Translations under genes and position numbers: made by a program | Source: Lysobacteraceae bacterium PS02340 | GTDB taxonomy: Bacteria; Pseudomonadota; Gammaproteobacteria; Xanthomonadales; Xanthomonadaceae | Assembly: GCA_029959605.1 (NCBI GenBank) | Contig: JASCOC010000005.1 | Coordinates: 62,001-126,000 of the forward strand | Direction: 5' to 3' | DNA length: 64,000 nucleotides | Shown: positions 11,137 through 45,781 of the stretch, one piece after another | Numbering within the stretch: position 1 is the first letter of the stretch | How the letters are laid out: each line of letters starts with the position of its first letter | The notes under the pieces: generated by a model | What the model saw: only the letters and a program-made list of their open reading frames with translations | What the model was told of the DNA's origin: nothing | Database searches by the model: none

Positions 11137-11203
11137 CGCAGCCCGACGTCCCCCTGTCACGGCGTCATCGATGCTGCCACAGATGGCCGCGCCCGCGCGG
11201 CGC

Positions 11204-14581: not shown

Positions 14582-14592
14582 CGCGCCCTCGA

Positions 14593-14606
14593 TTGGATCG
14601 GTTCAA
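14593..14606. promoter_or_regulatory. imperfect operator copy next to the GH92 start
   Basis: TTGGATCGGTTCAA shares its right half, CGGTTCAA, with the stronger dyad at 14694-14707. The two centres are 101 bp apart in the divergent region. It lies 12 bp upstream of the GH92 start and is likely a second site for the adjacent LacI protein. Confidence 0.5.
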
Positions 14607-14693
14607 TGGCCGCGAACCTAGCACTGGCGCTCAGGCCGCGCATGTTGCGCCGCAGGATGCCGTGGACCGCTGCAATGGTCACCATGCGCGCGT

Positions 14694-14707
14694 CTGAACC
14701 GGTTCAA
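14694..14707. promoter_or_regulatory. operator of the mannoside-locus LacI regulator
   Basis: The core TGAACCGGTTCA (14695-14706) is a perfect 12-bp palindrome with a central CpG, the usual form of a LacI-family site. It ends 10 bp before the lacI ATG, so binding would block lacI transcription or initiation. This fits autoregulation plus control of the divergent GH92 gene. Confidence 0.65.
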
Positions 14708-14716
14708 ATTTCTGGC

Positions 14717-15796
14717 ATGTCTCCGATCCGACGCGTGACTCTGGCCGACATCGCGGCCGCCTGCGGGCTGTCCAAGGCGACGGTCTCGATGGTGTTGCGC
14801 GACAACCCGCAGGTGCATCCCGACACCCGCGCGCGGGTCCGCACCGAGCTGGAGCGCCAGGGCTACGTCTATCACCGCGGCGCGGCCAGCCTGCGCCACG
14901 GGGGCGCGTCGAATGCGGTGGCGCTGGTCGTCAACGATCTGGCGAATCCGTTCTTCGCCGAGTTCGCCGCGGGCGTCGATGCGGCGCTGGCCGAAGCCGG
15001 TCATGTGCTGCTGCTCGGCAGCACCGGCGAGTCGGTCGAGCGCCAGCAGGCCGTGTTGGCCTCGCTGGTCGAACACGCGCCGGCAGCGCTGATCCTCTCG
15101 CCCGCCGAACACAGCAGCGCCGCGCGCCTGCGGAAAGTCTGCGGGCCGCGGCTGCCGGTGCTGCTGTTCAACCGCACGCTCGACGACGGCGGCACCGGCG
15201 ACTGGGACTATCTGGCCCTCGACAACCGCGCCGGTGCGCGTCTGGCGACGGAGCACCTGCTCGCGCAGGGCCATCGCGCGATCGCGTTCTTCGGCGGCCA
15301 TCGCGAGTCGAGTTCCTGCGGCGAGCGTCGCGCCGGCTATCGCGAAGCGCTGGCCGATGCGGGCATCGCGCCCGATCCCGCGTGGTTGATCGAATGCGCG
15401 CCCACGCGCCTCGAAGCCGCGCGGCAGACGCCGGCGCTGTTCGCGCGCGATCCCGCACCGACCGCGGCGGTCTGCTACAACGACGCCGTCGCGCTGGGCC
15501 TGATCGCCGGCCTCGCAAGCTGCGGCCGCCGCGCCGGCCACGACTTCGCCGTGACCGGTTTCGACGACATCGCCGAAGCCGCCTTCGCCTCGCCGCCGCT
15601 GACCACCATCGCCACCGATCCGCGCGCCCGTGGCCTGCAGGCTGCGCGACTCGTGCTTGCGCGATTGCGCGGCGCGCTGCCCCACGCGTCCCACACGACC
15701 ATCGCCCCCGTTGCGCTGCAGATCCGTGCCAGCACGGCCGCCGCGCCCGACTCCGCATTCCCATCGCCCGCCCGGGCCCGAGGTAGCGCCGCATGA
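14717..15796 (+). CDS. LacI-family regulator of the mannoside locus
   Basis: A 359-residue repressor. The ATG at 14717 was chosen because the DNA-binding domain begins directly after it: VTLADIAAACGLSKATVSMVL is the helix-turn-helix and DTRARVRTELERQGY leads to the hinge. The periplasmic-binding-protein-like effector domain covers residues about 65-335 (VALVVNDLANPFFAEFAAGVD, then CGERRAGYREAL and VTGFDDIAEA). It should respond to mannose or a mannoside, inferred from the neighbours only. Its stop overlaps the permease start by 4 nt, so regulator and transporter are one transcript. The frame stays open far upstream, antisense to GH92, but that extension is not coding. Confidence 0.9.
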   Translation: MSPIRRVTLADIAAACGLSKATVSMVLRDNPQVHPDTRARVRTELERQGYVYHRGAASLRHGGASNAVALVVNDLANPFFAEFAAGVDAALAEAGHVLLLGSTGESVERQQAVLASLVEHAPAALILSPAEHSSAARLRKVCGPRLPVLLFNRTLDDGGTGDWDYLALDNRAGARLATEHLLAQGHRAIAFFGGHRESSSCGERRAGYREALADAGIAPDPAWLIECAPTRLEAARQTPALFARDPAPTAAVCYNDAVALGLIAGLASCGRRAGHDFAVTGFDDIAEAAFASPPLTTIATDPRARGLQAARLVLARLRGALPHASHTTIAPVALQIRASTAAAPDSAFPSPARARGSAA

Positions 15797-17103
15797 ATCC
15801 GTCCAGCCGCACGATGTCCAATCCCGCTGCGATCGCAGTGGTCAGCCTGATCTTCTTCACCTGGGGCGGCCTGACCAGTCTCAACGACGTGCTGATCCCG
15901 CATCTCAAAGCCGTGTTCTCGATGAACTACACGCAGACGATGCTGATCCAGTTCACGTTCTTCGGTGCGTATTTCCTGATGTCGATGCCGGCCGGCGCCG
16001 TCGTCGCGCGCGTGGGCTACAAGGCGGGCATCGTCATCGGTCTGGTGATCGCCGCGATCGGTGCGGCGCTGTTCTATCCGGCCGCGCGACTGCCGTCGTA
16101 TCCGGTGTTCCTGACCGCGCTGTTCGTGCTGGCCAGCGGCATCACGTTGCTGCAGGTCGCGGCCAATCCGTACATCAGCCTGCTCGGCCGGCCGGAGACC
16201 TCGCACAGCCGCCTCAATCTGGCGCAGGCGCTGAACTCGCTGGGCACGACGGTGTTTCCGCTGCTGATCGGTCCGCTGATCCTGGTCGGCGCGGTGCTCG
16301 GTGCCGACGAGATCGCGGCGATGGGCGCGGCCGAACAGATCGCCTACCGCGCGGCCGAAGCACGCTCGGTCGAAATGCCGTATCTGCTGCTCGCCGGCGG
16401 CCTGTTGCTGATGGCGGTGTTCGTGCTGCTGATGCGCATTCCGTCGCTGCGCGAATCCACCGAGGCCAGCCCGGCCGTGCACCACACCTATCTCGAAGCG
16501 CTGCGCACCCCGCATCTGCGCTGGGGCGTGCTGGGCATCTTCTGCTACGTCGGCGCGGAGGTCGCGATCGGCAGCTTCCTGATCAACTACATGGCCGAGC
16601 CGGAGATCGGTGGACTGACCGAAGCGCGCGCCTCGCAGTTCCTCGCGTTCTACTGGGGCGGTGCGATGGTCGGCCGCTTCCTCGGCGCGGCGCTGATGAC
16701 CTTCATCGACGCGCGCAAGCTGCTCGGTTTCGCCGCCGGCATGGTCTGCCTGCTTCTGGTGGTCACGATGAGCACGACCGGTCACGTGGCGATGTGGAGC
16801 GCGCTGGCGATCGGCCTGTTCAACTCGATCATGTTCCCGACCATCTTCACCACCGCGATCGAGCGTCTCGGCACGCTGACCAGCAAGGCGTCTAGCCTGC
16901 TGGTGATGGCGATCGTCGGCGGCGCGCTGATCCCGCTCGCGCAGGGCGCGCTGGCCGACAACATCGGCATCCAGCATGCGTTCGTCGTGCCGCTGGTGTG
17001 CTACGTCTACATCATCTGGTACGGCCTGCGCGGCTCGCGCCTGAGTGGCGCCGCGCTGACCACGGCCGATGTGCCGGCGCCGCGTCCGGGTGCGATGCAT
17101 TGA
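15793..17103 (+). CDS. FHS-family MFS sugar permease (FucP/GluP type)
   Basis: A 436-residue inner-membrane protein with about 12 helices, belonging to the fucose/galactose/glucose:H+ symporter branch of the major facilitator superfamily. Diagnostic stretches are FFTWGGLTSLNDVLIPHLK near the N terminus, QVAANPYISLLGRPETSHSR and the following LNLAQALNSLGT. In this operon it is the likely carrier that takes mannose released in the periplasm into the cytoplasm; the sugar is inferred from the isomerase and kinase downstream. It starts inside the lacI stop codon (ATGA overlap). Confidence 0.9.
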   Translation: MNPSSRTMSNPAAIAVVSLIFFTWGGLTSLNDVLIPHLKAVFSMNYTQTMLIQFTFFGAYFLMSMPAGAVVARVGYKAGIVIGLVIAAIGAALFYPAARLPSYPVFLTALFVLASGITLLQVAANPYISLLGRPETSHSRLNLAQALNSLGTTVFPLLIGPLILVGAVLGADEIAAMGAAEQIAYRAAEARSVEMPYLLLAGGLLLMAVFVLLMRIPSLRESTEASPAVHHTYLEALRTPHLRWGVLGIFCYVGAEVAIGSFLINYMAEPEIGGLTEARASQFLAFYWGGAMVGRFLGAALMTFIDARKLLGFAAGMVCLLLVVTMSTTGHVAMWSALAIGLFNSIMFPTIFTTAIERLGTLTSKASSLLVMAIVGGALIPLAQGALADNIGIQHAFVVPLVCYVYIIWYGLRGSRLSGAALTTADVPAPRPGAMH

Positions 17104-17105
17104 GG

Positions 17106-18101
17106 GTGCAGGCAACGACTGCAGCCACGCGCGACTTCGTCGCCTGCTTCGGCGAGGCGCTGATCGATTTCCGCGCCGAGCACGGCCGCGACGGCACGCG
17201 CCGCTTCGTCGAACAGCCCGGCGGCGCGCCGGCCAACGTCGCCGTCGGCGTGGCGGCGCTCGGCGGTCGTGCGCGTTTCATCGGCATGCTCGCCCGGGAC
17301 ATGTTCGGCGACGCGCTGCATGCCGCGCTCGCCACGCGCGGCGTCGATGTCTCGCAGGTACGACGTACCGGCGAGGCGCCGACCGCACTGGCCTTCGTCG
17401 CCCTGGCCGCGGACGGCGAACGCAGTTTCAGTTTCTACCGGCCGCCGGCTGCGGATCTGCTGTTTCAGGACGGCGATTTCGTCGAACACGCCTTCGATGA
17501 CGTCGCCGTGCTGCACGTGTGCTCGAACAGCATGACCGCGCCCGCGATCGCGGCCACCACGCTGCAGGCGATGGCGCGCGCCGCGCACGCCGGCGCACTG
17601 GTGAGTCTGGATCTCAATCTGCGCCCCGCGCTGTGGCCGCGCGACGTCGATCCCGCGCCGACCCTGTGGCAGGCGCTTGCGGCGGCGCGGCTGATCAAGC
17701 TCAGCGCCGAGGAGTTCGCATTCCTGACCGGCAACGGCGATCTCGCCGGCACGATCGCGCGCCTGTTTGCCGGTGACGCCGCGGTGGTGCTGGTCACCGA
17801 CGGCGCCGCCCCGATGCGCTGGTGGACGCGCACGCGCGCCGGCACGGCCGACACCTTCGCCGTCGAGACGATCGACACCACCGCCGCCGGCGATGCCTGC
17901 GTCGCCGGCCTGCTGCAGCGCCTGGTCGCACGCGGCATCGATGCCGACGGACTCGTGGCCGCATTCGAGGACGACGCGGCGCGCGAGGATCTGCTGCGCC
18001 ATGCGGCGGCCGCCGGTGCACTCGCGACCACACGCCATGGCGCGTTCGACGCGATGCCCGACGCGGCTGCCGTGCGCGCCCTGCTGGAGACCGCACGATG
18101 A
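17106..18101 (+). CDS. PfkB-family sugar kinase, probable fructokinase
   Basis: The product is about 331 residues. The start is either GTG at 17106 or TTG at 17100, because the permease stops at 17103 and the conserved core (FVACFGEALIDF) begins just after. PfkB motif 1 is GGAPANVAVGVAALGG (residues about 38-53). Motif 2 is DTTAAGDACVAG near the C terminus, with the catalytic Asp in GDAC; the usual GAGD reads AAGD here. It would phosphorylate fructose with ATP, completing mannose to fructose to fructose 6-phosphate with the isomerase encoded next. Substrate is inferred from that neighbour; another hexose or a ketosugar acid is possible. Its last codons overlap the next ATG by 4 nt. Confidence 0.85.
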   Translation: MQATTAATRDFVACFGEALIDFRAEHGRDGTRRFVEQPGGAPANVAVGVAALGGRARFIGMLARDMFGDALHAALATRGVDVSQVRRTGEAPTALAFVALAADGERSFSFYRPPAADLLFQDGDFVEHAFDDVAVLHVCSNSMTAPAIAATTLQAMARAAHAGALVSLDLNLRPALWPRDVDPAPTLWQALAAARLIKLSAEEFAFLTGNGDLAGTIARLFAGDAAVVLVTDGAAPMRWWTRTRAGTADTFAVETIDTTAAGDACVAGLLQRLVARGIDADGLVAAFEDDAAREDLLRHAAAAGALATTRHGAFDAMPDAAAVRALLETAR

Positions 18102-19396
18102 GCCTGCCCGCCGCGCCACTGCCCGACTTCACCGCACAGGCCACATTGCGCGCGCACATCGCCGACACGATGGCGTTCTATCACCCGCGCGCGATCGATC
18201 CCGACGGCGGCTTCTTCCACTATTTCCGCGACGACGGCAGCGTCTACGACCGCGGTCATCGCCACCTCGTCAGCAGCACGCGCTTCGTCTACGACTACGC
18301 GATGGCCGCGGTCGAGTTCGCCGACTCGCGTCATGCCGACGACTGGCGCGCTGGCGCAATGCACGGGCTGCGCTTCCTGCGCGAGGCGCATCGCGATGCC
18401 GAGCGTGGCGGCTATGTCTGGACATTGCAGGATGGTGCGGTCGAGGACGACACCCGCCACAGCTACGGCATGGCCTTCGTGCTGCTCGCCTGCGCCAGCG
18501 CGCGCAAGGCCGGACTGCCGACGCAGGCGTGGATGGACGAGACCTGGGATTTGCTCGAACGCCACGCCTGGGACGCGGATGCGGGCCTGTACCGCGACGA
18601 GGCCGATGCGCAGTGGCGCTACAGCGGCTATCGCGGCCAGAACGCGAACATGCATCTGTGCGAAGCGCTGATCGCTGCACACGAGGCCGGCGGCGACGCG
18701 CGCTATCTGCAACGCGCGCTGCAGCTTGCCGATCACATGACGCGCCGCCAGGCGGCGCTGTCGGGCGACCTGGTCTGGGAGCACTGGCACGCGGACTGGT
18801 CGGTCGACTGGGACTACCACCGGGACGATCCCAGGCACCTGTTCCGGCCTTGGGGCTTCCAGCCCGGCCACCAGATCGAATGGGCGAAGCTGCTGCTGTC
18901 GCTGCGCGCGCATCTGGGCGATGCCGCGCCGGCGTGGTTGCTGCCGACCGCGCGCCATCTCTACGACGCCGCGCTCGCGCACGGCTGGGACGCCGAGCAC
19001 GGCGGCATCGTCTACGGCTTCGCGCCCGAATCGCTGCGCGAGGCGTCGCCCGCGCGCGGCGCGGCGCCGCCGGACCTCGCACAGGTGCCGATGTTCTGGT
19101 GCGACGACGACAAGTATTTCTGGGTGCAGGCCGAAGCGATCGCCGCGGCCTGGCGGCTGTTCGACGCGACCGGCGAGGCGCGCTATCGCGACGACTACCT
19201 GCGTCTGTGGGACTACGCGTGGCGGCACTTCGTCGACCACACCCACGGCGCGTGGTTCCGCATCCTCGACCGCCGCAACCGCAAGTACGACGACCTCAAG
19301 AGCCCCGCGGGCAAGACCGATTACCACACGATGGGCGCCTGCCACGACGTGCTCGCGGTGATGCGCGGCGCACACACCCGGAGCATCGACGCATGA
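18098..19396 (+). CDS. AGE-family mannose isomerase
   Basis: A 432-residue protein of the N-acylglucosamine 2-epimerase fold, an (alpha/alpha)6 barrel. Features matching mannose isomerases and YihS-type enzymes rather than GlcNAc epimerase are the early STRFVYDYAMA segment, GQNANMHLCEAL, the GHQIEWAKLLLSL motif (residues about 257-269) and the late WFRILDRRNRK block. It would interconvert mannose and fructose in the cytoplasm, letting the cell skip mannose kinase and mannose 6-phosphate isomerase. The ATG at 18098 overlaps the kinase stop by 4 nt, and its own stop overlaps the GH47 start by 4 nt, so translation is coupled through the operon. Confidence 0.88.
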   Translation: MSLPAAPLPDFTAQATLRAHIADTMAFYHPRAIDPDGGFFHYFRDDGSVYDRGHRHLVSSTRFVYDYAMAAVEFADSRHADDWRAGAMHGLRFLREAHRDAERGGYVWTLQDGAVEDDTRHSYGMAFVLLACASARKAGLPTQAWMDETWDLLERHAWDADAGLYRDEADAQWRYSGYRGQNANMHLCEALIAAHEAGGDARYLQRALQLADHMTRRQAALSGDLVWEHWHADWSVDWDYHRDDPRHLFRPWGFQPGHQIEWAKLLLSLRAHLGDAAPAWLLPTARHLYDAALAHGWDAEHGGIVYGFAPESLREASPARGAAPPDLAQVPMFWCDDDKYFWVQAEAIAAAWRLFDATGEARYRDDYLRLWDYAWRHFVDHTHGAWFRILDRRNRKYDDLKSPAGKTDYHTMGACHDVLAVMRGAHTRSIDA

Positions 19397-20847
19397 GCCT
19401 TCCGCGATTCCGGTTCCACCGGCGCGCCCCCGCCATCGCACTCGCCGCCTGCGCCGCGCTGCTCGCCGGCTGCGCATCGACGGCGCCGGCTGCGCGCACC
19501 GCCACCACCCACACCGTCGTGCACGTCGCGCCGGACGCGCAACGCCGCCTCGATGCCTACGGCGCGGACGCGGTGATGGCCGAACGCGTCAAGGCCGAGT
19601 TCCTGCACGGCTGGCGTGGCTACCGCCAGTACGCCTGGGGGCGCGATGCCCTCAAGCCGCTGTCGAACACCGGCAGCGACTGGTACGGCGAATCGCTGCT
19701 GATGACGCCGGTCGACGCGCTCGACACGCTGCTGGTCATGGGCCTGACCGACGAGGCCGACGCCGCGCGCGAGCTGATCGCGACGCAGCTCTCGTTCGAC
19801 AGGGATCTCGACGTCAAGCATTTCGAGATCGTGATCCGCCTGCTCGGTGGCCTGCTGTCGGGTTACCAGATGACCGGCGACGCGCGTCTGCTCGCGCTGG
19901 CCGACGATCTCGGCACGCGGCTGCTGCCGGCATTCGATTCGCCGACCGGCCTGCCCTATGTCACCGTCAACCTGCGCACCGGCGCGACCGGCGGCACCGA
20001 GAGCAACCCCGCCGAGTCCGGCACGCTGCTGCTCGAATACGGCACGCTCGCGCGGCTGACCGGCAAGCAGGTGTACTGGGACAAGGCCTGGCGCGCGCTC
20101 GAAGCGACCTACGCGATGCGCTCGCCGATCGGTCTGGTCGGCGAACGCTTCGACGTCGAGACCGGCCAGTGGACGCAGACCCGCACCCACGTCGGCGCGC
20201 GCATCGACTCCTATTACGAATATTTGTGGAAGTGCTGGCAGCTGTTCGCCGAACCGCGCTGCAGGACCATGTGGGACACCCACGTCGCCGCGCTCAATAC
20301 GCATGTGGCCGACGAGGTCGACGGTGCGCTGTGGTACGGCCACGTCGACATGACGAGCGGTGCGCGCATCGCCCCGCGCTTCGGCGCGCTGGATGCGTTC
20401 TTCCCGGGCCTGCTCGCGGTCTCCGGTGATCTCGACCGCGCCGCCCGCCTGCAGCGCTCGGCGTTCTCGATGTGGCAGGCGCACGGCATTGAACCGGAAG
20501 TCTGGGATTACCGCGCCCGAAAGGTCGTCTCGCCCGGCTACCCGCTGCGGCCGGAGATCGTCGAATCCGCCTGGTACCTGTATCGCCTGACCGGCGACGA
20601 CGCCTGGCGCGACATGGGCCGCGCGATGTTCGACGACTTCGTCCGCCATACGCGCACCGACAGCGGCTTCGCCGCACTGGCGAACGTGGTGACCAAGGAG
20701 AAGAAGGACGACATGGAGAGCTTCGTGCTCGCCGAGACCTTCAAGTACTTTTATCTGCTCTATGCCGACCCGGCGACGCTGGATCCGGCGACGACAGTGC
20801 TGACCACGGAAGCGCATCCGCTCCAGCCCGTCGCGGCGCAGCGCTGA
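19393..20847 (+). CDS. GH47 class I alpha-mannosidase lipoprotein
   Basis: The product is 484 residues with a lipobox (LLAGC, Cys about 29), so it should be anchored to a membrane facing the periplasm or cell surface. GH47 enzymes hydrolyse terminal alpha-1,2-mannose with inversion and need calcium. Visible family motifs: KHFEIVIRLLGGLLSGY (general acid Glu), VGARIDSYYEYLWK (catalytic Asp), YPLRPEIVESAWYLYR (catalytic base Glu) and ESFVLAETFKYFYLLY, which carries the calcium-binding Thr. GH47 is chiefly eukaryotic, so a bacterial lipoprotein copy is uncommon though not new. It is the last gene of the lacI operon and probably works with GH92 on high-mannose glycans or mannan. Confidence 0.9.
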   Translation: MSLPRFRFHRRAPAIALAACAALLAGCASTAPAARTATTHTVVHVAPDAQRRLDAYGADAVMAERVKAEFLHGWRGYRQYAWGRDALKPLSNTGSDWYGESLLMTPVDALDTLLVMGLTDEADAARELIATQLSFDRDLDVKHFEIVIRLLGGLLSGYQMTGDARLLALADDLGTRLLPAFDSPTGLPYVTVNLRTGATGGTESNPAESGTLLLEYGTLARLTGKQVYWDKAWRALEATYAMRSPIGLVGERFDVETGQWTQTRTHVGARIDSYYEYLWKCWQLFAEPRCRTMWDTHVAALNTHVADEVDGALWYGHVDMTSGARIAPRFGALDAFFPGLLAVSGDLDRAARLQRSAFSMWQAHGIEPEVWDYRARKVVSPGYPLRPEIVESAWYLYRLTGDDAWRDMGRAMFDDFVRHTRTDSGFAALANVVTKEKKDDMESFVLAETFKYFYLLYADPATLDPATTVLTTEAHPLQPVAAQR

Positions 20848-20931: not shown

Positions 20932-20949
20932 GTTGACAACGCTGTCAAC
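20932..20949. promoter_or_regulatory. LacI-type operator before the TonB receptor gene
   Basis: GTTGACAAC and GCTGTCAAC form an 18-bp dyad with one mismatch around a central CpG. It contains TGACAACGCTGTCA and overlaps TTGACA (20933-20938), which with TCCAAT (20956-20961, 17-nt spacer) makes a plausible promoter. Binding would exclude RNA polymerase. The second LacI (28985-30010) is the likely binder because its own promoter carries the same site. Confidence 0.65.
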
Positions 20950-21045: not shown

Positions 21046-24000
21046 ATGAAGCGATTGCACGCCGCGCCGAAGAAGCGGCTTCTCACGTCTGCGTTGTTGT
21101 TCGCGCTCGCGCCACCGCTGGCGGCGCAGGTCGCCGAGCCGGCCACCGACGGTCCCGACGCCACCACGCTCGATGCGGTCACCGTGACCGGTATCCGCGG
21201 CAGTCTCGAATCGTCGATGAACCTCAAGCGCGATGCCCGCGGCATCGTCGACGGCATCATCGCCGAGGACATCGGCAAGTTCCCCGACACCAACCTCGCC
21301 GAATCGCTGCAGCGCATCTCCGGCGTGTCGATCGACCGCAGCGCGATCGGTGAAGGCTCGCGGGTGACGGTGCGCGGCGTCGGCCCCGACTTCAATCTGG
21401 TGCTGCTCAACGGCCGCCAGATGCCGGCGTCGAGCAACGGCGACGGCAGCACCGTGTCCAACTCGCGCGCGTACGACTTCGCCAACATCGCCTCGGAAGC
21501 CATTTCCGCGGTCGAGGTCTACAAGAGCGGCCGTGCGGAAACCCCGACCGGCGGCATCGGCGCGACGATCAACATCAAGACCGCACGTCCGCTCGACAAC
21601 CCGGGCTTCCGGGCCAATGTCGGCATCAAGGGCGTGCACGACACCTCGCTCGACAACCTGCCCGACCAGTTCAAGGGCAGCTCGGTCACGCCGGAAGTCT
21701 CGGGCATCTTCAGCACCACCAGCGCCGATGGCCGCTTCGGCATCGCGGTGACCGGCAGCTACCAGGAACGCGATCTGGGCTACAACCAGGTCTCGGTGCC
21801 GGGCGGCTGGCGCGGCTTCCGCGGCGACGAGCAGAACTGGGGCACGATCCCGCAGCCCGGCACGCCGGGTTCGGAGAACATCGTCAACCGGCCCGGTCCG
21901 GACGATGTCTACTCGGTGCCGCAGAACCTCAACTACTCAGTCACCGGCGTGCAGCGTCAGCGCACCAACGGCCAGGTCGTCCTGCAGTGGGCGCCGACCG
22001 ACAGCATCACCACGACGCTCGATTACACGTACTCCGAGAACAAGATCCAGCAGCAGCGCAACGACATGTCGGTGTGGTTCAACTACGGCCCGTCGTCGTC
22101 GTCGTGGACCGATGGCCCGGTCGCCGCGCCGCTGCTCTACACCGAAATTCTGCCCTTCACCTGCGCGCCTGATTCGGGCGTCTGCCGCGGCGCCGATCTG
22201 GCGATGGGCGGCGCGGACATCGCCAACCGGAACGAGAACAAGTCGCTCGGCTTCAACGTCGAGTGGGAAGCGACCGACAATCTCGGATTCGAGCTCGACG
22301 TGCACAAGTCGACCGCGGAGACGAGCCCGGACAGCCCCTACGGTTCCGGCGGCACGCTCGGTACGGCGGCCTTCATCCGCGGCAACACCACCGCCGATTT
22401 CAGCGGCGACTTTCCGATCCTGACCGTGCAGTACCCGCCGGGTTACACCGGCCCACGCGCGTCCGACATGCTAGTCACCGGCTCGGTGTTCCACCGCAGC
22501 TACATGAAATCTGAGATCGAACAGGTACAGGCCCGCGGTCACTTCAAGTTCGGCGACTACTCGCGCCTCGACTTCGGCGTGGCGGCGACGGAAGCCAACA
22601 ACCGCACCGCCTACGGCAACGTGCAGCGCGACAACACCTGGGGCGGCGCGGAAGGCAGCGCCGAGGACTATCCGGACAACATCTGGATCCCCGGCAACAT
22701 GGGCGACTACTTCGACGCGTTTCCGGGCAGCGGCAACCCGGCGTTCACCGACGGCTTCTTCATGTTCGACTTCAAGACCGTGCGCGATCTCGCGGCGCAG
22801 TTCGCCGGCGACGAAGCGCTGTATCTCGCGCCTGCGACCTACAACACCGATCGCCGCGTCACCGAGAAGTCGAAGAGCGCCTACATCCAGGTGAGTTCGA
22901 CCTGGGACATCGGCATCCAGTTGAACGCCGCCGCCGGCGTGCGCTACGAGAAGACCGACGTCACCTCGTCGGCGCTCGTGCCGGTCGCCACCGCGCTGCT
23001 GTGGGAATCCAACAACGAGATCGGCATCCAGCGTGACGGCTCCGACTTCACCACGCTTTACGGCGACTACGCGCACTGGCTGCCCAGCATCGACCTCAGC
23101 GCCGAGCTGACCGACAGCCTGATCCTGCGCAGCAGCTACAGCCGCACGATCGGTCGACCGGGCTGGGGCGACATCCAGGGCGGACAGACGCTCAACGAAC
23201 CGGTGCGCATCGACGGCGGCACCGGCCAGCAGGGCAACCCGGGACTGGAGCCACTCAAGGCCGACAACTTCGACCTGTCGCTGGAGTGGTACTACGCCGA
23301 GGCCAGCTATCTGTCGTTCGGCTATTTCCAGAAGAACATCGACAACTACATCGGCACGACGATCATCCAGGCCACGCCGTTCGATCTGACGACGCCGATC
23401 GGCGGCGCGTACTGGAACGCGGCGGTCGCCAATGCCTGCCCGACGACCGATCTGACCTGTATCCGCAATTACATCTTCACCAACTTCAACGGCCAGCCGG
23501 GCGTGGTCCGCGGTCCGAACGACGCAGGCGGCAATGCGACGGGCACGATCACCGGCCAGCCGGGCGATCCGATCGCGAACTTCCGCATCACCACGCCGGC
23601 CAATACCGGCTCGTCGAAGCTCGACGGTGTCGAACTCAATCTGCAGCACGTGTTCGGCAACAGCGGCTTCGGTCTAGCGGCGAACTACACCTACGTCGAC
23701 AGTCCCGACCTGAACTACGACAACTACAACCTCGGCGGCCAGTTCGCGCTGGTGGGCCTGAGCGACTCGGCCAATCTGGTGGCGTTCTACGACAAGGGGT
23801 CGTGGCAGGCGCGTGCGGCCTACAACTGGCGCGACAAGTTCCTGTCCAGCGGCTTCGACAGCGAACGTCCCAACCCGGTGTACGTCGAGGAATACGGCCA
23901 GCTCGACGTCAGCGTGGGCTACAAGGTCTCCGACAACCTCACCCTGCAGGCCGAGGCGATCAACGTGACCGACGAGACCCAGCGCACGCACGGACGCAAC

Positions 24001-24069
24001 GCACGCCAGCTGCTGTACGGCACCCAGACCGGTCCGCGCTACATGTTCGGCGTCAGGTACACGTTCTGA
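21046..24069 (+). CDS. TonB-dependent outer-membrane receptor
   Basis: A 1,007-residue receptor with a signal peptide (cleavage after PPLAAQ, residue about 28). TLDAVTVTGIRGSLESS precedes the plug domain, which contains GKFPDTNLAESLQRISGV, RVTVRGVGPDFNLVLLNGR and the VEVYKSG segment. The rest is a large beta-barrel ending in RYMFGVRYTF with a terminal Phe, as outer-membrane proteins have. The wording of the plug matches the carbohydrate-uptake (CAP/Caulobacter-Xanthomonas) type of receptor. GGGAGGGGAGA precedes the ATG. The operator upstream and the GH3 gene with the same operator suggest an oligosaccharide substrate, perhaps a beta-glucan. The following genes are read the same way. Confidence 0.93.
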   Translation: MKRLHAAPKKRLLTSALLFALAPPLAAQVAEPATDGPDATTLDAVTVTGIRGSLESSMNLKRDARGIVDGIIAEDIGKFPDTNLAESLQRISGVSIDRSAIGEGSRVTVRGVGPDFNLVLLNGRQMPASSNGDGSTVSNSRAYDFANIASEAISAVEVYKSGRAETPTGGIGATINIKTARPLDNPGFRANVGIKGVHDTSLDNLPDQFKGSSVTPEVSGIFSTTSADGRFGIAVTGSYQERDLGYNQVSVPGGWRGFRGDEQNWGTIPQPGTPGSENIVNRPGPDDVYSVPQNLNYSVTGVQRQRTNGQVVLQWAPTDSITTTLDYTYSENKIQQQRNDMSVWFNYGPSSSSWTDGPVAAPLLYTEILPFTCAPDSGVCRGADLAMGGADIANRNENKSLGFNVEWEATDNLGFELDVHKSTAETSPDSPYGSGGTLGTAAFIRGNTTADFSGDFPILTVQYPPGYTGPRASDMLVTGSVFHRSYMKSEIEQVQARGHFKFGDYSRLDFGVAATEANNRTAYGNVQRDNTWGGAEGSAEDYPDNIWIPGNMGDYFDAFPGSGNPAFTDGFFMFDFKTVRDLAAQFAGDEALYLAPATYNTDRRVTEKSKSAYIQVSSTWDIGIQLNAAAGVRYEKTDVTSSALVPVATALLWESNNEIGIQRDGSDFTTLYGDYAHWLPSIDLSAELTDSLILRSSYSRTIGRPGWGDIQGGQTLNEPVRIDGGTGQQGNPGLEPLKADNFDLSLEWYYAEASYLSFGYFQKNIDNYIGTTIIQATPFDLTTPIGGAYWNAAVANACPTTDLTCIRNYIFTNFNGQPGVVRGPNDAGGNATGTITGQPGDPIANFRITTPANTGSSKLDGVELNLQHVFGNSGFGLAANYTYVDSPDLNYDNYNLGGQFALVGLSDSANLVAFYDKGSWQARAAYNWRDKFLSSGFDSERPNPVYVEEYGQLDVSVGYKVSDNLTLQAEAINVTDETQRTHGRNARQLLYGTQTGPRYMFGVRYTF

Positions 24070-24086
24070 TTCCGGTGGCCGCCCAT

Positions 24087-24111
24087 GCGCCGCGGCTTCG
24101 TGCCGCGGCGC
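24087..24111 (+). terminator. perfect 10-bp hairpin after the receptor gene
   Basis: GCGCCGCGGC and GCCGCGGCGC pair perfectly around the loop TTCGT, 17 nt after the receptor stop and just before the halogenase start. A T-rich tail is missing (TGTCTGTCC follows), so it could be a partial terminator or a 3' stabiliser that lowers downstream expression relative to the receptor. Confidence 0.5.
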
Positions 24112-24130
24112 TGTCTGTCCACGGCGCCCG

Positions 24131-25720
24131 TTGCGATCCGCGGGCCGCCTGCACGGGCTCGCCAGGTTGAGCCGCCCGCTGCGTCACGTCGTCATCCTCG
24201 GCGGCGGTTCCGCCGGCTGGCTGACCGCGGCCTTGCTGGCAGCCGATCACGACAGCGCATCGCCCACCGGCCTGCGCGTGACCCTGATCGAATCGCCGGA
24301 CGTGCCGACCATCGGCGTCGGCGAAGGCACCTGGCCGACGATGCGCGACACGCTGCGCCGCGTGGGCGTGTCGGAAACCGACTTCGTGCGCGCCTGCGAT
24401 GCGACCTTCAAGCAGGGCTCGAAGTTCGTGCGTTGGACCCACGATCGCGCCGACGATCACTACCACCATCCCTTCGTGCTGCCGCAGGGCTATCACGACG
24501 CGGATCTCGTCGCCGGCTGGATGCGGCAGGGCGACGTGCCCTTCGACCGGCTGGTGAGTTTCCAGCCGCAGCTGTGCGATGCCGGCCGCGCACCCAAGCA
24601 GTTCGGTACGCCCGAATACGCCGCGGTCGCCAACTACGCCTACCACCTGGATGCGGCGAAGCTGGGCCTGTTCCTGCGCGCGCACTGCACGCAGCGCCTG
24701 GGCGTGCGGCTGGTGTCGGATCATGTGGAGGGCGTGGACGTGCACGAGAACGGCGACATCGCCGCACTGCACACCCGCGCGCACGGCGCGATCGACGGCG
24801 ATCTGTTCGTCGACTGCACCGGCCTGCGTGGGCTGCTGATCGGCCAGCACTACGGCGTCGAAAAGACCGCCTGCGGCGACGTGCTGTTCAACGACCGCGC
24901 ACTGGCGCTGCAGGTGCGTTATCCGAATGCCGACACCCCGATCGCCTGCCAGACCATCTCCACCGCGCAGGCCAACGGCTGGATCTGGGACATCGGCCTG
25001 TCGGCGCGACGCGGCGTCGGCCACGTGTATTCCAGCGCGCACACCGATGCCGAAGCCGTCGAGGCCGCGCTGCAGCGCTACATCGCCGACACCGGCGGCG
25101 CGGACTGCGAGGTCATCGCCCGCCAGTCGCTGTCGTTCGAGCCCGGCTACCGGCGCCGCAGTTGGCACAGCAACTGCGTGGCGATCGGCCTGTCGAGCGG
25201 CTTCGTCGAACCGCTGGAAGCGTCGTCGCTGGTGCTGGTCGAACTGGCCGCGACGATGCTTAGCGATCAGCTGCCGGCCACGCGCGAGACGATGGACACC
25301 GTTGCGGCACGCTTCAACGACACGTTCGCCTATCGCTGGGAACGCGTCGTCGAATTCCTGAAGCTGCACTACGTGCTGTCGCACCGCGACGACAGCGCGT
25401 ACTGGCGCGACCATCGCGATGCTGCGCGCATGCCGGCGCGCCTGACCGAGCTGCTGGCGCTGTGGCGCCACCAGGCGCCGTCGCGCTACGACCTGCCGCG
25501 TGTGGACGAGGTGTTTCCCTCGGCCAGCTGGCAGTACATTCTCTACGGCATGGGATTCCGGCCGAACACGCGCGCCACCACACGTCGCGCGTCCGATGCG
25601 GGACGCGCGGAAGCGGCGTTCCGCGAAGCGTCCGATCTCGCGCGCAAAATGATTCCGGCGCTGCCCAGCCACCGCGAACTGATCGACCACATCCACACCC
25701 GGGGCCTGTCCCCCGTCTAG
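24131..25720 (+). CDS. flavin-dependent halogenase-like protein, receptor-linked
   Basis: The 529-residue product belongs to the tryptophan halogenase family (PF04820), which uses FADH2 and O2 to make hypohalous acid. The FAD site GGGSAGW is at residues about 24-30, GVGEGTWPT follows, and the catalytic Lys aligns with Lys94 (FKQG). The WxWxIP signature is present as WIWDIG (284-289) with the Pro changed to Gly. The usual FxEPLES segment reads FVEPLEAS (358-365): the Glu is kept and the Ser is Ala. Start uncertain: TTG at 24131 or TTG at 24167, no clear ribosome site. It opens a four-gene run behind the TonB receptor. The substrate is unknown; some related enzymes brominate indole in vitro. 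Confidence 0.82.
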   Translation: MRSAGRLHGLARLSRPLRHVVILGGGSAGWLTAALLAADHDSASPTGLRVTLIESPDVPTIGVGEGTWPTMRDTLRRVGVSETDFVRACDATFKQGSKFVRWTHDRADDHYHHPFVLPQGYHDADLVAGWMRQGDVPFDRLVSFQPQLCDAGRAPKQFGTPEYAAVANYAYHLDAAKLGLFLRAHCTQRLGVRLVSDHVEGVDVHENGDIAALHTRAHGAIDGDLFVDCTGLRGLLIGQHYGVEKTACGDVLFNDRALALQVRYPNADTPIACQTISTAQANGWIWDIGLSARRGVGHVYSSAHTDAEAVEAALQRYIADTGGADCEVIARQSLSFEPGYRRRSWHSNCVAIGLSSGFVEPLEASSLVLVELAATMLSDQLPATRETMDTVAARFNDTFAYRWERVVEFLKLHYVLSHRDDSAYWRDHRDAARMPARLTELLALWRHQAPSRYDLPRVDEVFPSASWQYILYGMGFRPNTRATTRRASDAGRAEAAFREASDLARKMIPALPSHRELIDHIHTRGLSPV

Positions 25721-25729
25721 GCGAGCGTG

Positions 25730-26437
25730 ATGTCCAGGACCGTGCAACTCAACAACGTCGACCACAAGGATCTGCGCGTCGACACCGGCCATGGCGCCGC
25801 GCTCGGCGACGCCGTGATGTGGGCGATCACGTTTCCCGCCGAGTTCCGCAATGTGCAGGCGAACTATCCGATCGTGTTCGGCAAGTCCGCCGACGGCGAG
25901 TTCCAGCCGCTGGCGCTGTTCGGCTTCACCGATGGACAGAACCTGTTCCTCGACGGCGAGCGCTGGGACGCGACCTACATTCCGCTGACCATCGAGCGCC
26001 AGCCGTTCCTGATCGGCCGGTCCGCCCACGAGATGCTGGTGCACATCGATCTCGATCATCCGCGCGTCGGCAGCGCGCGCGGCGAAGCGCTGTTCCTGCC
26101 GCACGGCGGCACCAGCGACTATCTCGAACGCGCGAGCTCGATGCTCAACACCATCCACCAGGGCTTGCAGACCAATGCGCCGTTCGTGGCCGCGCTGCTG
26201 CAGCACCAGCTGCTCGAACCCTTCGTGCTCGACATCCGCCTCGACGACGGCTCGGACAACCGGCTGTCGGGCTACTACACGATCGACGAGGACCGGCTGC
26301 GCCAGCTCGATGGCGAGGCCTTCGCATCGCTGGGCCGCGCCGGCCATCTGGAGCCGATCTATATGATGCTGGCGTCGGTCGCCCGCTTCCGCGACCTGAT
26401 CGACCGGGTGAACCGTGCCGGCGCTGCAGGTCGATAA
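25730..26437 (+). CDS. SapC family protein
   Basis: A 235-residue protein resembling the SapC family (PF07277), first named from a Campylobacter S-layer locus but of unknown biochemical role. Visible features are the N-terminal beta strands, FPAEFRNVQANYPIVFGK, LFGFTDGQNLFLDGERWDATYIPLTIERQPFLIG read as separate blocks, and a C-terminal HLEPIYMMLASV. No signal peptide is seen, so it is probably cytoplasmic. A GTG one codon upstream (25727) is an alternative start. In xanthomonads and caulobacters such genes recur between receptor-linked halogenase and cupin-like genes, as here. The next gene overlaps it by 23 nt. Confidence 0.82.
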   Translation: MSRTVQLNNVDHKDLRVDTGHGAALGDAVMWAITFPAEFRNVQANYPIVFGKSADGEFQPLALFGFTDGQNLFLDGERWDATYIPLTIERQPFLIGRSAHEMLVHIDLDHPRVGSARGEALFLPHGGTSDYLERASSMLNTIHQGLQTNAPFVAALLQHQLLEPFVLDIRLDDGSDNRLSGYYTIDEDRLRQLDGEAFASLGRAGHLEPIYMMLASVARFRDLIDRVNRAGAAGR

Positions 26438-27443
26438 GCGCATTCCCGAGATCGCCGGGGTCGATCCCCGTGCGATTCCGGAGGCCGTGCTGCGTTCGGA
26501 GACCCCGCTGGTGCTGCGCGGCCTGCTGGCCGACTGGCCGGTGGTGCAGGCGGCGCAGCAATCGCCCGATGCGGTGGCGCAATACCTGCACCGCTTCGAA
26601 CGCGCCGACGGGCCGCCCGTAGTCGCGACCGTCGGGCCGCCGGAGATCGACGGCCGCTTCTTCTACGACGACACGTTGCAGGGCTTCAACTTCCGCCGCG
26701 AAAACGTGCCGCTCGGCGTCGCGCTGAAGACGCTGCTCAAGTACGCGGCCGATCCGGCGGCGCCGGCGATCTACGTCGGCTCGACGACCATCGACACCTG
26801 GCTGCCGGGCTTCCGCGCCGAGAACGACCTGCCGCTGGGCGGGCGCGATGCGCTGGCCAGCATCTGGATCGGCAACCGCACCCGCATCGCCGCGCATCAG
26901 GACCTGCCCGACAACCTCGCCTGCGTGGTCGCCGGCACGCGGCGCGCGACGCTGTTTCCGCCGCAGCAGCTCGAGAACCTCTACATCGGACCGCTCGACT
27001 TCACCCCGGCCGGCCAGGCGGTGAGCCTGGTCGATTTCGCCGATGTCGATCACGCCCGCTTCCCGCGTTTCGCGCAAGCCCAGGCGCAGGCGCAGTGCGC
27101 CGACCTCGCGCCGGGCGATGCACTGTTCATTCCGAGCATGTGGTGGCACCACATGGAAGCGCAGACGCCGTTCAACGTGCTGGTCAACTACTGGTGGCGG
27201 CAGGCGCCCGCGTGGGCGAACACGCCGATGGACACGCTGATGCTCGCGATCATGAGCATCCGTGATCTGCCGCCCGCCGAGCGCGCGATCTGGGGCGACG
27301 TCTTCCGTCATTACGTCTTCGACTACGACGAGGACACCGTCGCCGGCCACGTGCCCGCGCCGGCCCGACGCAGCCTGGCACCGCTCGACGAAACACGCGC
27401 ACGCGAGATCCGCGCGCGTCTGCTCAAACGCCTGAACCGCTGA
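26415..27443 (+). CDS. cupin_8/JmjC-like Fe(II), 2-oxoglutarate oxygenase family protein
   Basis: A 342-residue protein of the cupin_8 (JmjC-like) type. The iron-binding facial triad looks intact: His161 and Asp163 (AAHQDLPDN) and a distal His in SMWWHHMEA (His245 or 246). PLVLRGLLADWPVV near the N terminus and the FIPSMWWH core are typical of the family, whose members hydroxylate protein or small-molecule targets. A curious QAQAQAQ stretch lies at about 221-227. The start is a GTG inside the SapC gene, implying coupled translation. Its constant company (receptor, halogenases, SapC) suggests a joint task, possibly a modification; this is inference. Confidence 0.82.
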   Translation: MPALQVDKRIPEIAGVDPRAIPEAVLRSETPLVLRGLLADWPVVQAAQQSPDAVAQYLHRFERADGPPVVATVGPPEIDGRFFYDDTLQGFNFRRENVPLGVALKTLLKYAADPAAPAIYVGSTTIDTWLPGFRAENDLPLGGRDALASIWIGNRTRIAAHQDLPDNLACVVAGTRRATLFPPQQLENLYIGPLDFTPAGQAVSLVDFADVDHARFPRFAQAQAQAQCADLAPGDALFIPSMWWHHMEAQTPFNVLVNYWWRQAPAWANTPMDTLMLAIMSIRDLPPAERAIWGDVFRHYVFDYDEDTVAGHVPAPARRSLAPLDETRAREIRARLLKRLNR

Positions 27444-27457
27444 GGATCGCACCCGTC

Positions 27458-28969
27458 ATGCACACCCATTCCGACATCGCCGGGCGTCCGGTCAAGCGCG
27501 TGGTCATCGCCGGCGGCGGCACCGCCGGCTGGATGGCCGCCGCTGCGATCTCGCGCACGCTCGGCAAGGTGCTCGACATCACCCTGATCGAATCGGAGGA
27601 GATCGGCACCGTCGGCGTCGGCGAGGCCACGATCCCGACCCTGATGACCTTCCATCGCCTGCTCGACATCAAGGAGCAGGATTTCATGGCCGCCACCCAG
27701 GGCACGATCAAGCTGGGCATCAGCTTCGAGAACTGGCTGGACCAGGGCGTCGACTACATCCATTCCTTCGGCCTGACCGGCACCGACCACTGGACGGCGG
27801 GCTTCCAGCATTTCTGGATGAAGGGCCGCGAGCGCGGCCTCGCCGGTGATTACGGCGACTACTGCGTCGAGCTCAAGGCCGCCGAACAGGGCCGTTTCGC
27901 GCATCTGCCCAAGCGCCGCCTCAACTACGCCTACCACATGGACGCGAGCCTCTACGCGCGCTTCCTGCGGACCTTCAGCGAAAGCAACGGCGCGAAGCGG
28001 GTCGAAGGCAAGATCACCGAAGTGAAGACCGACGACGCGTCGGGGTTCATCACCTCGCTGGTGCTCGCGAACGGCGACGAGATCGAGGGCGACTTCTTCA
28101 TCGACTGCACGGGCTTCCGCGCCCTGCTGATCGAAAAAGCGCTCGGCGTCGGCTTCACCGACTGGTCGCACTGGCTGTTCAACGACAGTGCGCTGGCGAC
28201 GCAGACCACGGCCGTCCGCGACGCAGTGCCCTATACGCGCGCGATCGCCGACACGGCCGGCTGGCAGTGGCGGATTCCGCTGCAGCACCGCGTGGGCAAC
28301 GGGATCGTCTATTCGAGCCGCTACATGGACGACGACGAAGCGAAAGCACGCTTCCTGTCGAGCATCGAAGGCGAGGTCATCAAGGATCCGTGGCCGGTGC
28401 GCTTCCGCCCCGGCCAGCGCGAGCAGTGCTGGCACAAGAACTGCGTGGCGCTGGGACTGGCGGGCAGCTTCATCGAGCCGTTGGAATCGACCACGATCCA
28501 CCTGATCCAGCGCGGCATCATCCACCTGATGCAGACCTTCCCGCGCGTGGTCGCGCAGCCGGACATCGACCAGTACAACGCACGCCTGTCGGAAGAGATC
28601 CAGCACACGCGCGACTTCGTGATCCTGCATTTCCATCTCAACAACCGCACCGACACGCAGTACTGGATCGACTACCGCGAGATGACGATCCCCGCGACGC
28701 TGAAACACCGCATCGATCTGTTCCGCGAAACCGGGCGCGTCTTCCACGTGCCGACCGAGCTGTTCGCGGAGAACTCGTGGATCCAGGTGATGATGGGCCA
28801 GGGCATCTACCCGAAGCATTTCCACCCGTCTGCGGATCTGATGGGCGACGCCGAGCTGTCGCATTTCCTCGGCCAGATCAGCACCGACGTCGAGCGCACG
28901 GTGCGCCAGCTGCCGACGCACATGGATTACATGCGCAGTTACGCGCCCGGTGGTGCGCCGCCCGTCTGA
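27458..28969 (+). CDS. flavin-dependent (tryptophan-type) halogenase
   Basis: The 503-residue product is the second halogenase of this locus and the more canonical one. GGGTAGW (19-25) binds FAD, GVGEATIPTL follows, the catalytic Lys is Lys85 (GTIKLG), and the signature is complete: WQWRIP at 269-274. FIEPLEST (338-345) keeps the Glu and Ser that position the Lys in characterised enzymes. The Gly that normally follows is Thr, a change to note near the chloride/flavin region. It starts 14 nt after the cupin gene and is convergent with lacI, with only 15 nt between stops. It should need a separate flavin reductase; none is in the window. Confidence 0.9.
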   Translation: MHTHSDIAGRPVKRVVIAGGGTAGWMAAAAISRTLGKVLDITLIESEEIGTVGVGEATIPTLMTFHRLLDIKEQDFMAATQGTIKLGISFENWLDQGVDYIHSFGLTGTDHWTAGFQHFWMKGRERGLAGDYGDYCVELKAAEQGRFAHLPKRRLNYAYHMDASLYARFLRTFSESNGAKRVEGKITEVKTDDASGFITSLVLANGDEIEGDFFIDCTGFRALLIEKALGVGFTDWSHWLFNDSALATQTTAVRDAVPYTRAIADTAGWQWRIPLQHRVGNGIVYSSRYMDDDEAKARFLSSIEGEVIKDPWPVRFRPGQREQCWHKNCVALGLAGSFIEPLESTTIHLIQRGIIHLMQTFPRVVAQPDIDQYNARLSEEIQHTRDFVILHFHLNNRTDTQYWIDYREMTIPATLKHRIDLFRETGRVFHVPTELFAENSWIQVMMGQGIYPKHFHPSADLMGDAELSHFLGQISTDVERTVRQLPTHMDYMRSYAPGGAPPV

Positions 28970-28984
28970 GACGGCGGGATCGGG

Positions 28985-30010
28985 TCAGGCGCGCACGGGT
29001 CCGGTCGACTTGCGCACCTGCAGCGCGTACGGCAGTTCCAGCGTTTCGCCGGCGCTGCTGTCGCGGATCGCCTTGAGCAGTTCGAGACCGGCCAGTCGAC
29101 CCATCTCGCGGCTGGGCTGACGCACGGTGGTCAGCGAGGGATAGATATGGCGCGCGATCGGCATGTCGTCGAACCCGCAGACCGACACGTCCTTCGGCAC
29201 CGACAGGCCGCGCTCGCAGATCGCGCAGATCGCGCCCGCCGCCATGTCGTCGTTGGCGGCGAAGACCGCGGTCGGCGGATCCGGCAGATCGAGCAGGGTG
29301 TTGGTCGCGTCGAAACCGGATTCGTAGAAGAACTTGCCGGCGACGACCAGCGCGGCGTCGTAGGCGAGTCCCGCCTGCTTGAGACCGTCGCGATAGCCGG
29401 CCAGGCGCCAGCGGCTGGCACCGTGCGCGGGATGCCCTTTGATGTGGGCGATGCGGCGATGGCCGAGACCGGCCAGATGCAGCACGACATCGCGCGCAGC
29501 ACTGCGTTCGTCGACGACGGCGCCGATGCGCCGGTTCTGTTCCTGCGCCGACACGCTGGCGAACGGAATGCCCATCTCGTCGAGCCGCGCGAGCAGCTTC
29601 GCGTCGTCGGTGATCGGCGGTGTCAGCACTACGCCGTCGAGCTGCGACTGCACGATCATCGACTCGACCTTGGCGACGATGTCCTTGGCGGTGTAGTCGA
29701 CCGGCGCGAGCATCAGGTTGTAATGCTGCGACTGGCAGGCATCGAGTACGCCGAGCTCGACCTCCATGAGGTAGTTGCTCGACGGATTGTCGTAGAGCAT
29801 CGCGACGAGATACGAGCGGCGCCCGGCGAGCAGCCGCGCCGAGGCCAGCGGCCGGTACTGCAGCTTCTCGACCGCGGCCTCCACGGCCACGCGCGTGCGC
29901 TCGGAGACGTTCGGCTCGTTGTTGAGCACGCGCGACACCGTCTTCATCGACACGCCCGCCGCTTCCGCGACATCCTCGATCCGCACACGCATGCTGTTCA
30001 ATCCGGCCAT
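28985..30010 (-). CDS. LacI-family regulator of the receptor/GH3 locus
   Basis: A 341-residue repressor starting at ATG 30010 (Met at 29992 is the alternative, immediately before the DNA-binding domain). The helix-turn-helix is [21 protein letters not shown], followed by the hinge region [14 protein letters not shown] and an effector-binding domain ([29 protein letters not shown]). The recognition helix (SMKT) differs from that of the other LacI here (SKAT), which fits their different operators. The gene is divergent from the GH3 gene, with TGACAACGCTGTCA in between, so autoregulation and control of the receptor operon are likely. The inducer is unknown; the GH3 gene hints at a beta-gluco-oligosaccharide. 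Confidence 0.9.
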
Positions 30011-30128
30011 CGTCTTCCCGGTGGCGCATTCTGCCAGAGCCCGCAGTGCAGCACGTGCGGTGCCGTACGCGTCGATGACGCCCTGCAGCAAGCTTCGGCG
30101 GGCGTGCGCCGGTATGCTGACGCCCGCC

Positions 30129-30142
30129 TGACAACGCTGTCA
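30129..30142. promoter_or_regulatory. LacI-type operator between lacI and the GH3 gene
   Basis: TGACAACGCTGTCA is identical to the core before the TonB receptor. It is followed by two further CGCTGTCAT/CGCTGCCGT half-site-like repeats up to about 30160. Placed in the 212-bp divergent region, it can repress both lacI and the GH3 gene. Confidence 0.65.
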
Positions 30143-30222
30143 TCGCTGTCATCGCTGCCGTGCAGCATGGCGGCCGTCCCCACCGCGGCTCCGGTCGCAC
30201 CCTCCTGATCCGGAGCCCTTCG

Positions 30223-32817
<2,595 letters not shown>

Positions 32818-44008: not shown

Positions 44009-44054
44009 GCGGGCTCATCGAACACATTCCATCCGCACGAGGCACCGTCACCGC

Positions 44055-45716: not shown

Positions 45717-45781
45717 GCCGTCGATGATTGCGGCTGCGCGGGCGGGATGGCCGCATTGAACACCCGGGGACCTGCGCGGCG

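Follow-up and report, generated by a model that had tools for sequence, protein, structure and literature searches.

What would two flavin-dependent halogenases, an iron oxygenase and a SapC family protein act upon in an operon that begins with a receptor gene? The question is raised by a locus of Lysobacteraceae bacterium PS02340, situated in a stretch of 64,000 nucleotides (nt) of contig JASCOC010000005.1 (positions 62,001 to 126,000 of the forward strand), which is the window analysed here and in whose coordinates positions are given. Five adjacent genes on the + strand, at 21046-28969, encode in order a TonB-dependent receptor (TBDT), a PF04820 flavoprotein (HAL1), a SapC family protein, a Cupin_8 protein (CUP8) and a PF04820 halogenase (HAL2). 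The cluster is a conserved module, and we propose that its enzymes modify the receptor precursor in the cytoplasm, a reading to which we give an even chance of being correct.

Organisation of the operon

A preliminary description of the locus had reported five same-strand genes with short gaps or overlaps, and the open reading frame (ORF) list of the window confirms it, with successive intergenic distances of 61, 6, -23 and 14 nt. The receptor (21046..24069, +) belongs to the TIGR01782 type, with a score of 662.6 bits against that model (curated cut-off 310), and possesses both the plug (PF07715) and the barrel (PF00593). A signal-peptide-like start was recognised in the receptor and in none of the four partners, by eye and with no predictor run. 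The same description placed two distinct PF04820 halogenases around a SapC and a JmjC-like protein with an intact iron site, and this is upheld by the family scores: 392.8 bits for HAL1 (24131..25720, +; TTG start uncertain) and 617.6 bits for HAL2 (27458..28969, +) against a PF04820 cut-off of 21, with 32% identity between the two. Enclosed by them are SapC (25727..26437, +, with an ATG at 25730; PF07277, 231.3 bits) and an FIH-like Cupin_8/JmjC-type Fe(II)/2-oxoglutarate oxygenase (26415..27443, +; PF13621, 224.6 bits), which also has a weak JmjC_2 match in Pfam and no match in NCBIfam.

Conservation and linkage to receptors

SapC is present in 138 of 398 sampled Pseudomonadota genomes. From at least 150 places, 100 SapC regions were fetched with genomes of the same class favoured, and these make up 101 loci with the window, 31 of which contain both a TBDT and a halogenase. 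The families most widely shared among the 31 are TBDT (31), halogenase (31), SapC (29, as clustered), Cupin_8 (19) and glycoside hydrolase family 3 (GH3; 13). Relatives of the window receptor number at least 585, and the best 80 come from Xanthomonas, Stenotrophomonas, Pseudoxanthomonas, Massilia, Roseateles, Sphingomonas and Sphingopyxis, as well as in Alteromonas, Shewanella, Microbulbifer and others, and the commonest order among these 80 is TBDT-HAL-SapC-CUP8-HAL (34/80).

The partners form a graded series of losses. Around 115 module-type receptors, HAL1-SapC-CUP8-HAL2 occurs 49 times, SapC-CUP8-HAL2 21 times and SapC-CUP8 five times; CUP8 alone accompanies five receptors (three from Stenotrophomonas, one from Lysobacteraceae and one from Roseateles, one of the five at a contig edge), and nine have no partner (four with ample flank, four near contig ends and one duplicated in tandem next to a module receptor). 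HAL1 is missing from five Xanthomonas loci that keep SapC-CUP8-HAL2, and three of the four Stenotrophomonas loci retain the cupin only, one of them being cut at the contig end. A wider range of 148 receptors comprises HAL+SapC+CUP8 (80, six of them with the DUF6445 gene described below), no partner (35), HAL+SapC (13), HAL (8), and HAL+CUP8, CUP8 and SapC+CUP8 (4 each). HAL, SapC and CUP8 are therefore gained or lost around the receptor in six combinations, and SapC is never the sole partner among the 148. The 115 receptors, like those compared below for conserved aromatics, in Fisher tests and within the clade, were taken at scores of 850 or more with a model derived from receptors of modules, which favours module carriers. 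Where a contig end lay close and few or no partners were visible, the receptor was left out of the set of 148, of the comparison of aromatics and of the Fisher tests.

The receptor is constant by choice in sets that start from receptors; counts over whole genomes start from the enzymes, and they also end at receptors. In three genomes all candidates were scored, with PF04820 matches above 300 bits counted and weaker ones (at most 154 bits) left out. Each of the 31 halogenases has a TBDT no more than 5 kb away, of the TIGR01782 type for 29 of them (2.24 expected) and of another type for the remaining two. In the same genomes, every Cupin_8 gene (8/8) is within 6 kb of a TIGR01782 TBDT, and the eight SapC genes comprise six in modules and two solo. 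In 11 genomes with TIGR01782 matches, from each of which at most four halogenase candidates were scored, 30 of the 34 halogenases listed are within 5 kb of a TIGR01782 TBDT (1.5 expected); two of the four exceptions are within 5 kb of another TBDT, one (G234) is 7.5 kb from a TBDT and one (G340) has no TBDT near it on its contig. The co-location of halogenases with TBDTs is above chance, and the absence of association that had been envisaged as a refutation did not occur when the survey was run. The linkage also reaches beyond TIGR01782 receptors: elsewhere in the PS02340 genome (L141:8896-13541, on G000:C66), a halogenase of 675 bits adjoins a receptor with PF25183 and CarboxypepD_reg domains, which we take to be Oar-like; this halogenase is one of the two noted above beside a TBDT of another type.

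The halogenases and their relatives

Residues were counted in an alignment of 73 HAL1-type and 97 HAL2-type proteins drawn from module loci. The flavin site GxGxxG reads GGGxAGW in HAL1 (71-73 of 73 per position, x being T, S or rarely others) and GGGTAGW in HAL2 (94-96 of 97 per position). The catalytic residues are K94 and E363 in HAL1 (73/73 each) and K85 and E343 in HAL2 (96/97, with one gap, and 97/97), which presumably correspond to K79 and E346 of PrnA. By these residues, and by those of the cupin given below, HAL1, HAL2 and Cupin_8 look intact. A loss of the catalytic Lys in HAL2, read by eye, was dropped because the alignment keeps K85. The WxWxIP motif retains its Pro in 95 of 97 HAL2 proteins; HAL1 has WxWxI in 73/73, with Gly (58), Ala (12) or other residues at the Pro position, and WxWDIG in the window.

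The predominance of WxWDIG or WxWDIA over WxWxIP in HAL1, with a weak likeness of HAL1 to the hydroxylase QhpG, could indicate that the flavoproteins no longer halogenate in vivo and are flavin-dependent hydroxylases, or redox or oxygen sensors of outer-membrane biogenesis acting, for example, on SapC. We regard this as improbable, as both proteins retain the catalytic Lys and Glu, and in vitro bromination is documented for the X. campestris enzymes in the Xcc4156 paper (PMC7336383). QhpG is nevertheless instructive: it is described as a flavoprotein with a halogenase-like channel, of the general kind of HAL1 and HAL2, which dihydroxylates a Trp of a protein while this is still in the cytoplasm, ahead of its export (PMC7876137). 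It differs from the module enzymes in that NF049967 scores HAL1 at 42.5 and HAL2 at 21 bits (cut-off 240), and these keep the halogenase Lys and Glu. LodB is presumably to be grouped with QhpG as a protein-Trp flavoenzyme.

The closest solved structure to HAL1 is 2pyx (538 bits), and that to HAL2 is Xcc4156 (PDB 6y1w; 734 bits, 64% identity), to which halogenases from the modules of five Xanthomonas species show 84-90% identity. This group also includes BrvH (PDB 6frl). According to the papers on these enzymes, BrvH and three X. campestris halogenases act on indole derivatives in vitro (PMC5945002, PMC7336383), the X. campestris enzymes brominate their test substrates exclusively, and the native substrates of all four are described as unknown (PMC7336383). 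A second halogenase gene adjoins brvH, a likeness to the module; BrvH turns over indole slowly and has space for larger substrates, and its authors doubt that indole is the native one (PMC5945002). A halogenase survey assigns BrvH and the X. campestris enzymes to a group without the Trp-binding motif (PMC8269204). The BrvH and Xcc4156 papers differ from the present analysis in that they treat single enzymes and small substrates; TonB and SapC are absent from the main texts of both, and cupin from that of the BrvH paper.

It can be hypothesised from the activity of these relatives, and from the 64% identity of HAL2 to one of them, that the module enzymes act on a diffusible aromatic compound such as indole, Trp or a phenol derivative, made or imported by the cell in the presence of the sugar, and that the halogenated product is a signal or defence compound imported or secreted through the receptor. 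This is the more credible of the alternatives, and we still hold it to be unlikely. The low indole turnover of BrvH and its authors' doubts argue against it, and the partners are separately dispensable. Moreover, the recurrent neighbours of the module that could be named consist of glycan enzymes together with regulators and transporters, and biosynthetic enzymes are absent from them; each neighbour family took its name from a single representative of its cluster, and some clusters had no Pfam match or were not scanned.

A divergent halogenase-like protein (PF04820 65 and 154 bits), flanked by two ordinary halogenases beside a receptor, was observed at L168:10304-11767, G348:C33:331384-332631 and G186:C1:830424-831719; it is possibly a degenerate or repurposed copy.

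The preliminary description regarded the locus as a candidate for an undescribed system. This holds for the open PMC papers searched, among which no description of the module was found (subscription papers and preprints lay outside the search) and none combined halogenase, SapC and TonB-dependent; of those since 2008 with halogenase and TonB-dependent, none is about the linkage by title and abstract start, and PMC11337851 does not address it in the part available. It does not hold for the halogenases, whose relatives BrvH and Xcc4156 have been studied and crystallised, with the native substrate unknown. The present analysis adds counts that document the wide conservation, the series of losses, the connection through the operator, a second oxygenase (DUF6445), the unmatched SapC fold and the link to Xcc4156.

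Oxygenases and SapC

In the 94 module cupins, the residues of the H161-x-D163...H245 iron site, described for the window, and R176 are invariant (94/94 each). The protein aligns with FIH across the catalytic core (E 2e-17), with a similar HxD...H and intervening stretch. It differs from FIH in being bacterial and in having Arg176, in the GYKR position of FIH, where the latter has Lys214. R176 would be the basic residue for 2-oxoglutarate, a role that we take Lys214 to have in FIH. FIH-type enzymes hydroxylate proteins.

A precedent for a receptor gene beside a 2-oxoglutarate oxygenase gene is given by the cciT/cciO, fiu/ybiX and piuA/piuC operons, in which the role of the oxygenase is undetermined; in Caulobacter, the adjacent cciT and cciO are both required for the same phenotype (PMC12004943). 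Those operons combine iron receptors with a PiuC-type oxygenase, whereas the window operon has a glycan-type receptor, a JmjC-type cupin, SapC and halogenases. By its PF13621 and weak JmjC_2 matches and its lack of an NCBIfam match, the window Cupin_8 is not of the PiuC type.

Two other genes complete the picture. DUF6445 (PF20043) is an extra gene in nine of the 31 loci with TBDT and halogenase, and is absent from beside the window module; its HxD...H...R residues are invariant (7/7), and its predicted fold is most like that of 2-oxoglutarate oxygenases, at TM scores that are modest (0.3-0.5 in most cases). Its counts in the sets of 115 and 148 receptors come from a one-sequence model and are lower bounds.

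For SapC, a sequence comparison with the PDB gives no relative at E up to 1. Its AlphaFold2 model has a mean predicted local distance difference test (pLDDT) of 95.9 (35-row alignment), and neither a Foldseek search of the PDB at E up to 0.001 nor VIA-align of the 1000 best Foldseek candidates (no chain at Z >= 2) yielded a match. SapC can therefore be described as a confidently predicted fold with no detected PDB relative, which does not by itself prove a new fold. Its polar invariant columns are one His and one Glu in 172/172 proteins (106 from modules and 66 solo), presumably His12 and Glu38, and 94 of the 106 module SapC proteins form a pure clade (support 0.995). The idea that SapC is an iron oxygenase was rejected, as the His of its HxD-like stretch is not conserved. 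Solo SapC genes have no constant partner in 67 loci, the commonest neighbour family reaching 11/67; at solo loci lacking both halogenase and receptor (for example L082, L103 and L106), a peptidyl-prolyl isomerase or an FAD-linked oxidase occurs in small subsets.

Regulation and glycan context

The LacI-type operator TGACAACGCTGTCA lies upstream of the receptor operon (20934..20947, +), and an identical 14-mer (30129..30142, +) separates a LacI-family repressor gene (28985..30091, -; family match, start uncertain) from a gene for a GH3 glycosidase with an Exop_C domain (30160..32817, +), whose true start is probably downstream of the listed GTG. The window contains three copies against 0.04 expected, and the PS02340 genome four exact copies and one with a single mismatch, a reversed-pattern control giving 1. 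The third copy in the window (12062-12075) lies roughly 200 nt away from where a UPF0114 ORF (11204-11854, -) starts. A CG-centred LacI-type palindrome is found in a stretch of at most 600 nt around the open-frame start for 64 of the 115 module-type receptors, and for 1/115 in a control stretch of 600 nt taken within the gene. Its half-sites vary among loci (TGACAACGCTGTCA, TGTAAGCGCTTACA, TGGAAACGTTTCCA), in line with different sugar repressors. The shared operator makes it probable that the LacI protein regulates both the module and the GH3 gene. Since TGACAACGCTGTCA is common to the TBDT promoter and the LacI/GH3 pair, the module probably belongs to the GH3/LacI regulon and not to that of the upstream GH92/GH47 mannosidase cluster. 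The latter was considered and set aside, its promoter region having another palindrome, CTGAACCGGTTCAA, at 14694. This mannose-glycan cluster (12221-20847) comprises GH92, a LacI-like gene (by eye), MFS, PfkB, a GlcNAc-2-epimerase-like gene and GH47. Further upstream, a PAS-GGDEF-EAL protein (7730-11160, -) extends over two frames, with GGDEF positions 1-105 and 117-160 in successive ORFs, which suggests a frameshift, real or from sequencing.

The glycan genes that accompany the module differ from locus to locus, and glycan substrates are inferred here from neighbour genes. Of 114 loci, 41 contain GH3 with Exop_C (46 genes) and 36 contain GH16 (42 genes); other neighbours are GH1 and MFS_2, GH20 with a BadF-type kinase and a SIS protein (GH20 in six loci) and, in three loci, proteins of the agarase type. 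Plasmids also carry the module, whole or in part, with GH16, GH3 and LacI in Sphingobium, with agarase and beta-galactosidase in Catenovulum, and with GH95 and a divergent TBDT in another; on one plasmid, no glycan gene adjoins the module. A PF13469 sulfotransferase-domain protein (L055:4937-6505, with relatives in three more loci) adjoins modules of the chitooligosaccharide type.

The frequent presence of glycan-degradation genes and sugar-type operators could be taken to mean that the enzymes work on an aromatic group of the ligand or glycan that is imported. To our knowledge, beta-glucan, agar and chitooligosaccharides, whose genes accompany the module or parts of it, have no aromatic ring; for this reason a glycan decoration is unlikely as the common target, and the plasmid module without an adjoining glycan gene points the same way. 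We therefore give this explanation a small chance. The proposed check on accompanying glycoside hydrolases thus found them to vary, with beta-glucan, agar or chitooligosaccharide genes, or none.

The window contains a further region that could engage the halogenases. At 39743-47032 and 55784-57148 it encodes a ketoacyl synthase, a glycosyltransferase and three flavoproteins with weak PF04820 scores (52.8, 59.8 and 92.7 bits), which we take to resemble an aryl-polyene (xanthomonadin-like) pigment region. Xanthomonadins are brominated, and HAL1 and HAL2 might serve these pigment genes, 11-28 kb away (39.7-57 kb). Such a role seems very improbable: the module accompanies receptors in numerous other taxa as well as on plasmids, it is operator-linked to LacI/GH3, and the pigment region has flavoproteins of its own.

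The receptor as a proposed substrate

We propose that the operon combines a glycan receptor with its own cytoplasmic tailoring enzymes. The sugar would release LacI, and receptor, enzymes and GH3 would be produced together. On the unfolded receptor, prior to export by Sec, the FIH-like enzyme would hydroxylate Asn, Asp or His, and the FADH2-dependent enzymes would halogenate or hydroxylate aromatic side chains, with SapC as an accessory or adaptor. The modified receptor would then be inserted into the outer membrane, presumably to the benefit of the cell. The more specific proposal of a dedicated maturation, in which unfolded TBDT precursors are halogenated and hydroxylated by the operon halogenases, the FIH-like oxygenase and sometimes DUF6445 with SapC as adaptor, is put forward tentatively, at somewhat less than an even chance.

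Receptor modification is placed first on account of the free combinations of partners, the agreement of trees, the lack of space for a precursor peptide and the precedents of QhpG/FIH and cciT/cciO. The co-location counts, the retained catalytic residues, the varied glycan context and the PS02340 halogenase beside a receptor of another family also speak for it. Partners that combine freely around one receptor are more readily understood as modifiers that act separately on a common partner than as steps of an obligatory small-molecule pathway, and a usual precursor-peptide gene would not fit into gaps no longer than 61 nt. The distances of the receptor tree correlate with those of HAL1, HAL2, SapC and CUP8 (Mantel r 0.77, 0.87, 0.82 and 0.72; maximum of 500 permutations 0.31), values that are inflated by species relatedness and that co-inheritance alone would raise.

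Several other observations also weigh against the receptor as substrate. Residue tracking in the receptor, in four forms, revealed no column that convincingly follows the gain or loss of an enzyme. In Fisher tests, Y297 (82/83 with HAL2, 11/24 without), W532 (83/83 and 14/24) and D384 (90/90 with CUP8, 5/17 without) gave small p values, with enzyme-less receptors that come largely from other clades. Within the clade, five cupin-less receptors keep D384 and W532 (5/5 each) and N147 (4/5), and less often D602 and N484 (2/5 each) and N332 (1/5). When changes are placed on the tree, no column coincides with more than 5 of 13 HAL, 3 of 8 CUP8 or 3 of 11 SapC changes; nine columns, including D115 and D228, reach 3/8 for CUP8, and with 312 columns tested they are not claimed. 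The aromatics conserved in 83 HAL2 receptors are mostly kept in 13 without halogenase. In addition, partner-less receptors with enough flank exist (L153, L161, L159 and L244), no flavin reductase is found in the module, and a nascent receptor is short-lived in the cytoplasm. The relatives of the halogenases have been shown to act on small indoles. Two candidate sites were rejected. N767 is Asn or Asp in 92/92 receptors with CUP8 and 30/56 without, yet Asn in 9/13 with HAL and SapC and without CUP8; Y634 appeared enriched with halogenases but is kept in 13/13 close relatives without one. Among the targets named in the preliminary description, the receptor is thus favoured by co-occurrence, with no residue convincingly tracking the enzymes, and an aromatic decoration of the glycan loses ground as the glycan genes vary.

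The genome context directs the search for the substrates of crystallised and assayed halogenases to the adjoining receptor. If receptor modification is correct, it would be the first natural role for enzymes of the BrvH/Xcc4156 group; many bacteria that live in water or with plants would then modify receptors by halogenation and FIH-like hydroxylation, which might affect glycan uptake and the recognition of receptors by phages. Even with another substrate, the conserved module, its loss series and its sugar-type operators make the question a testable one.

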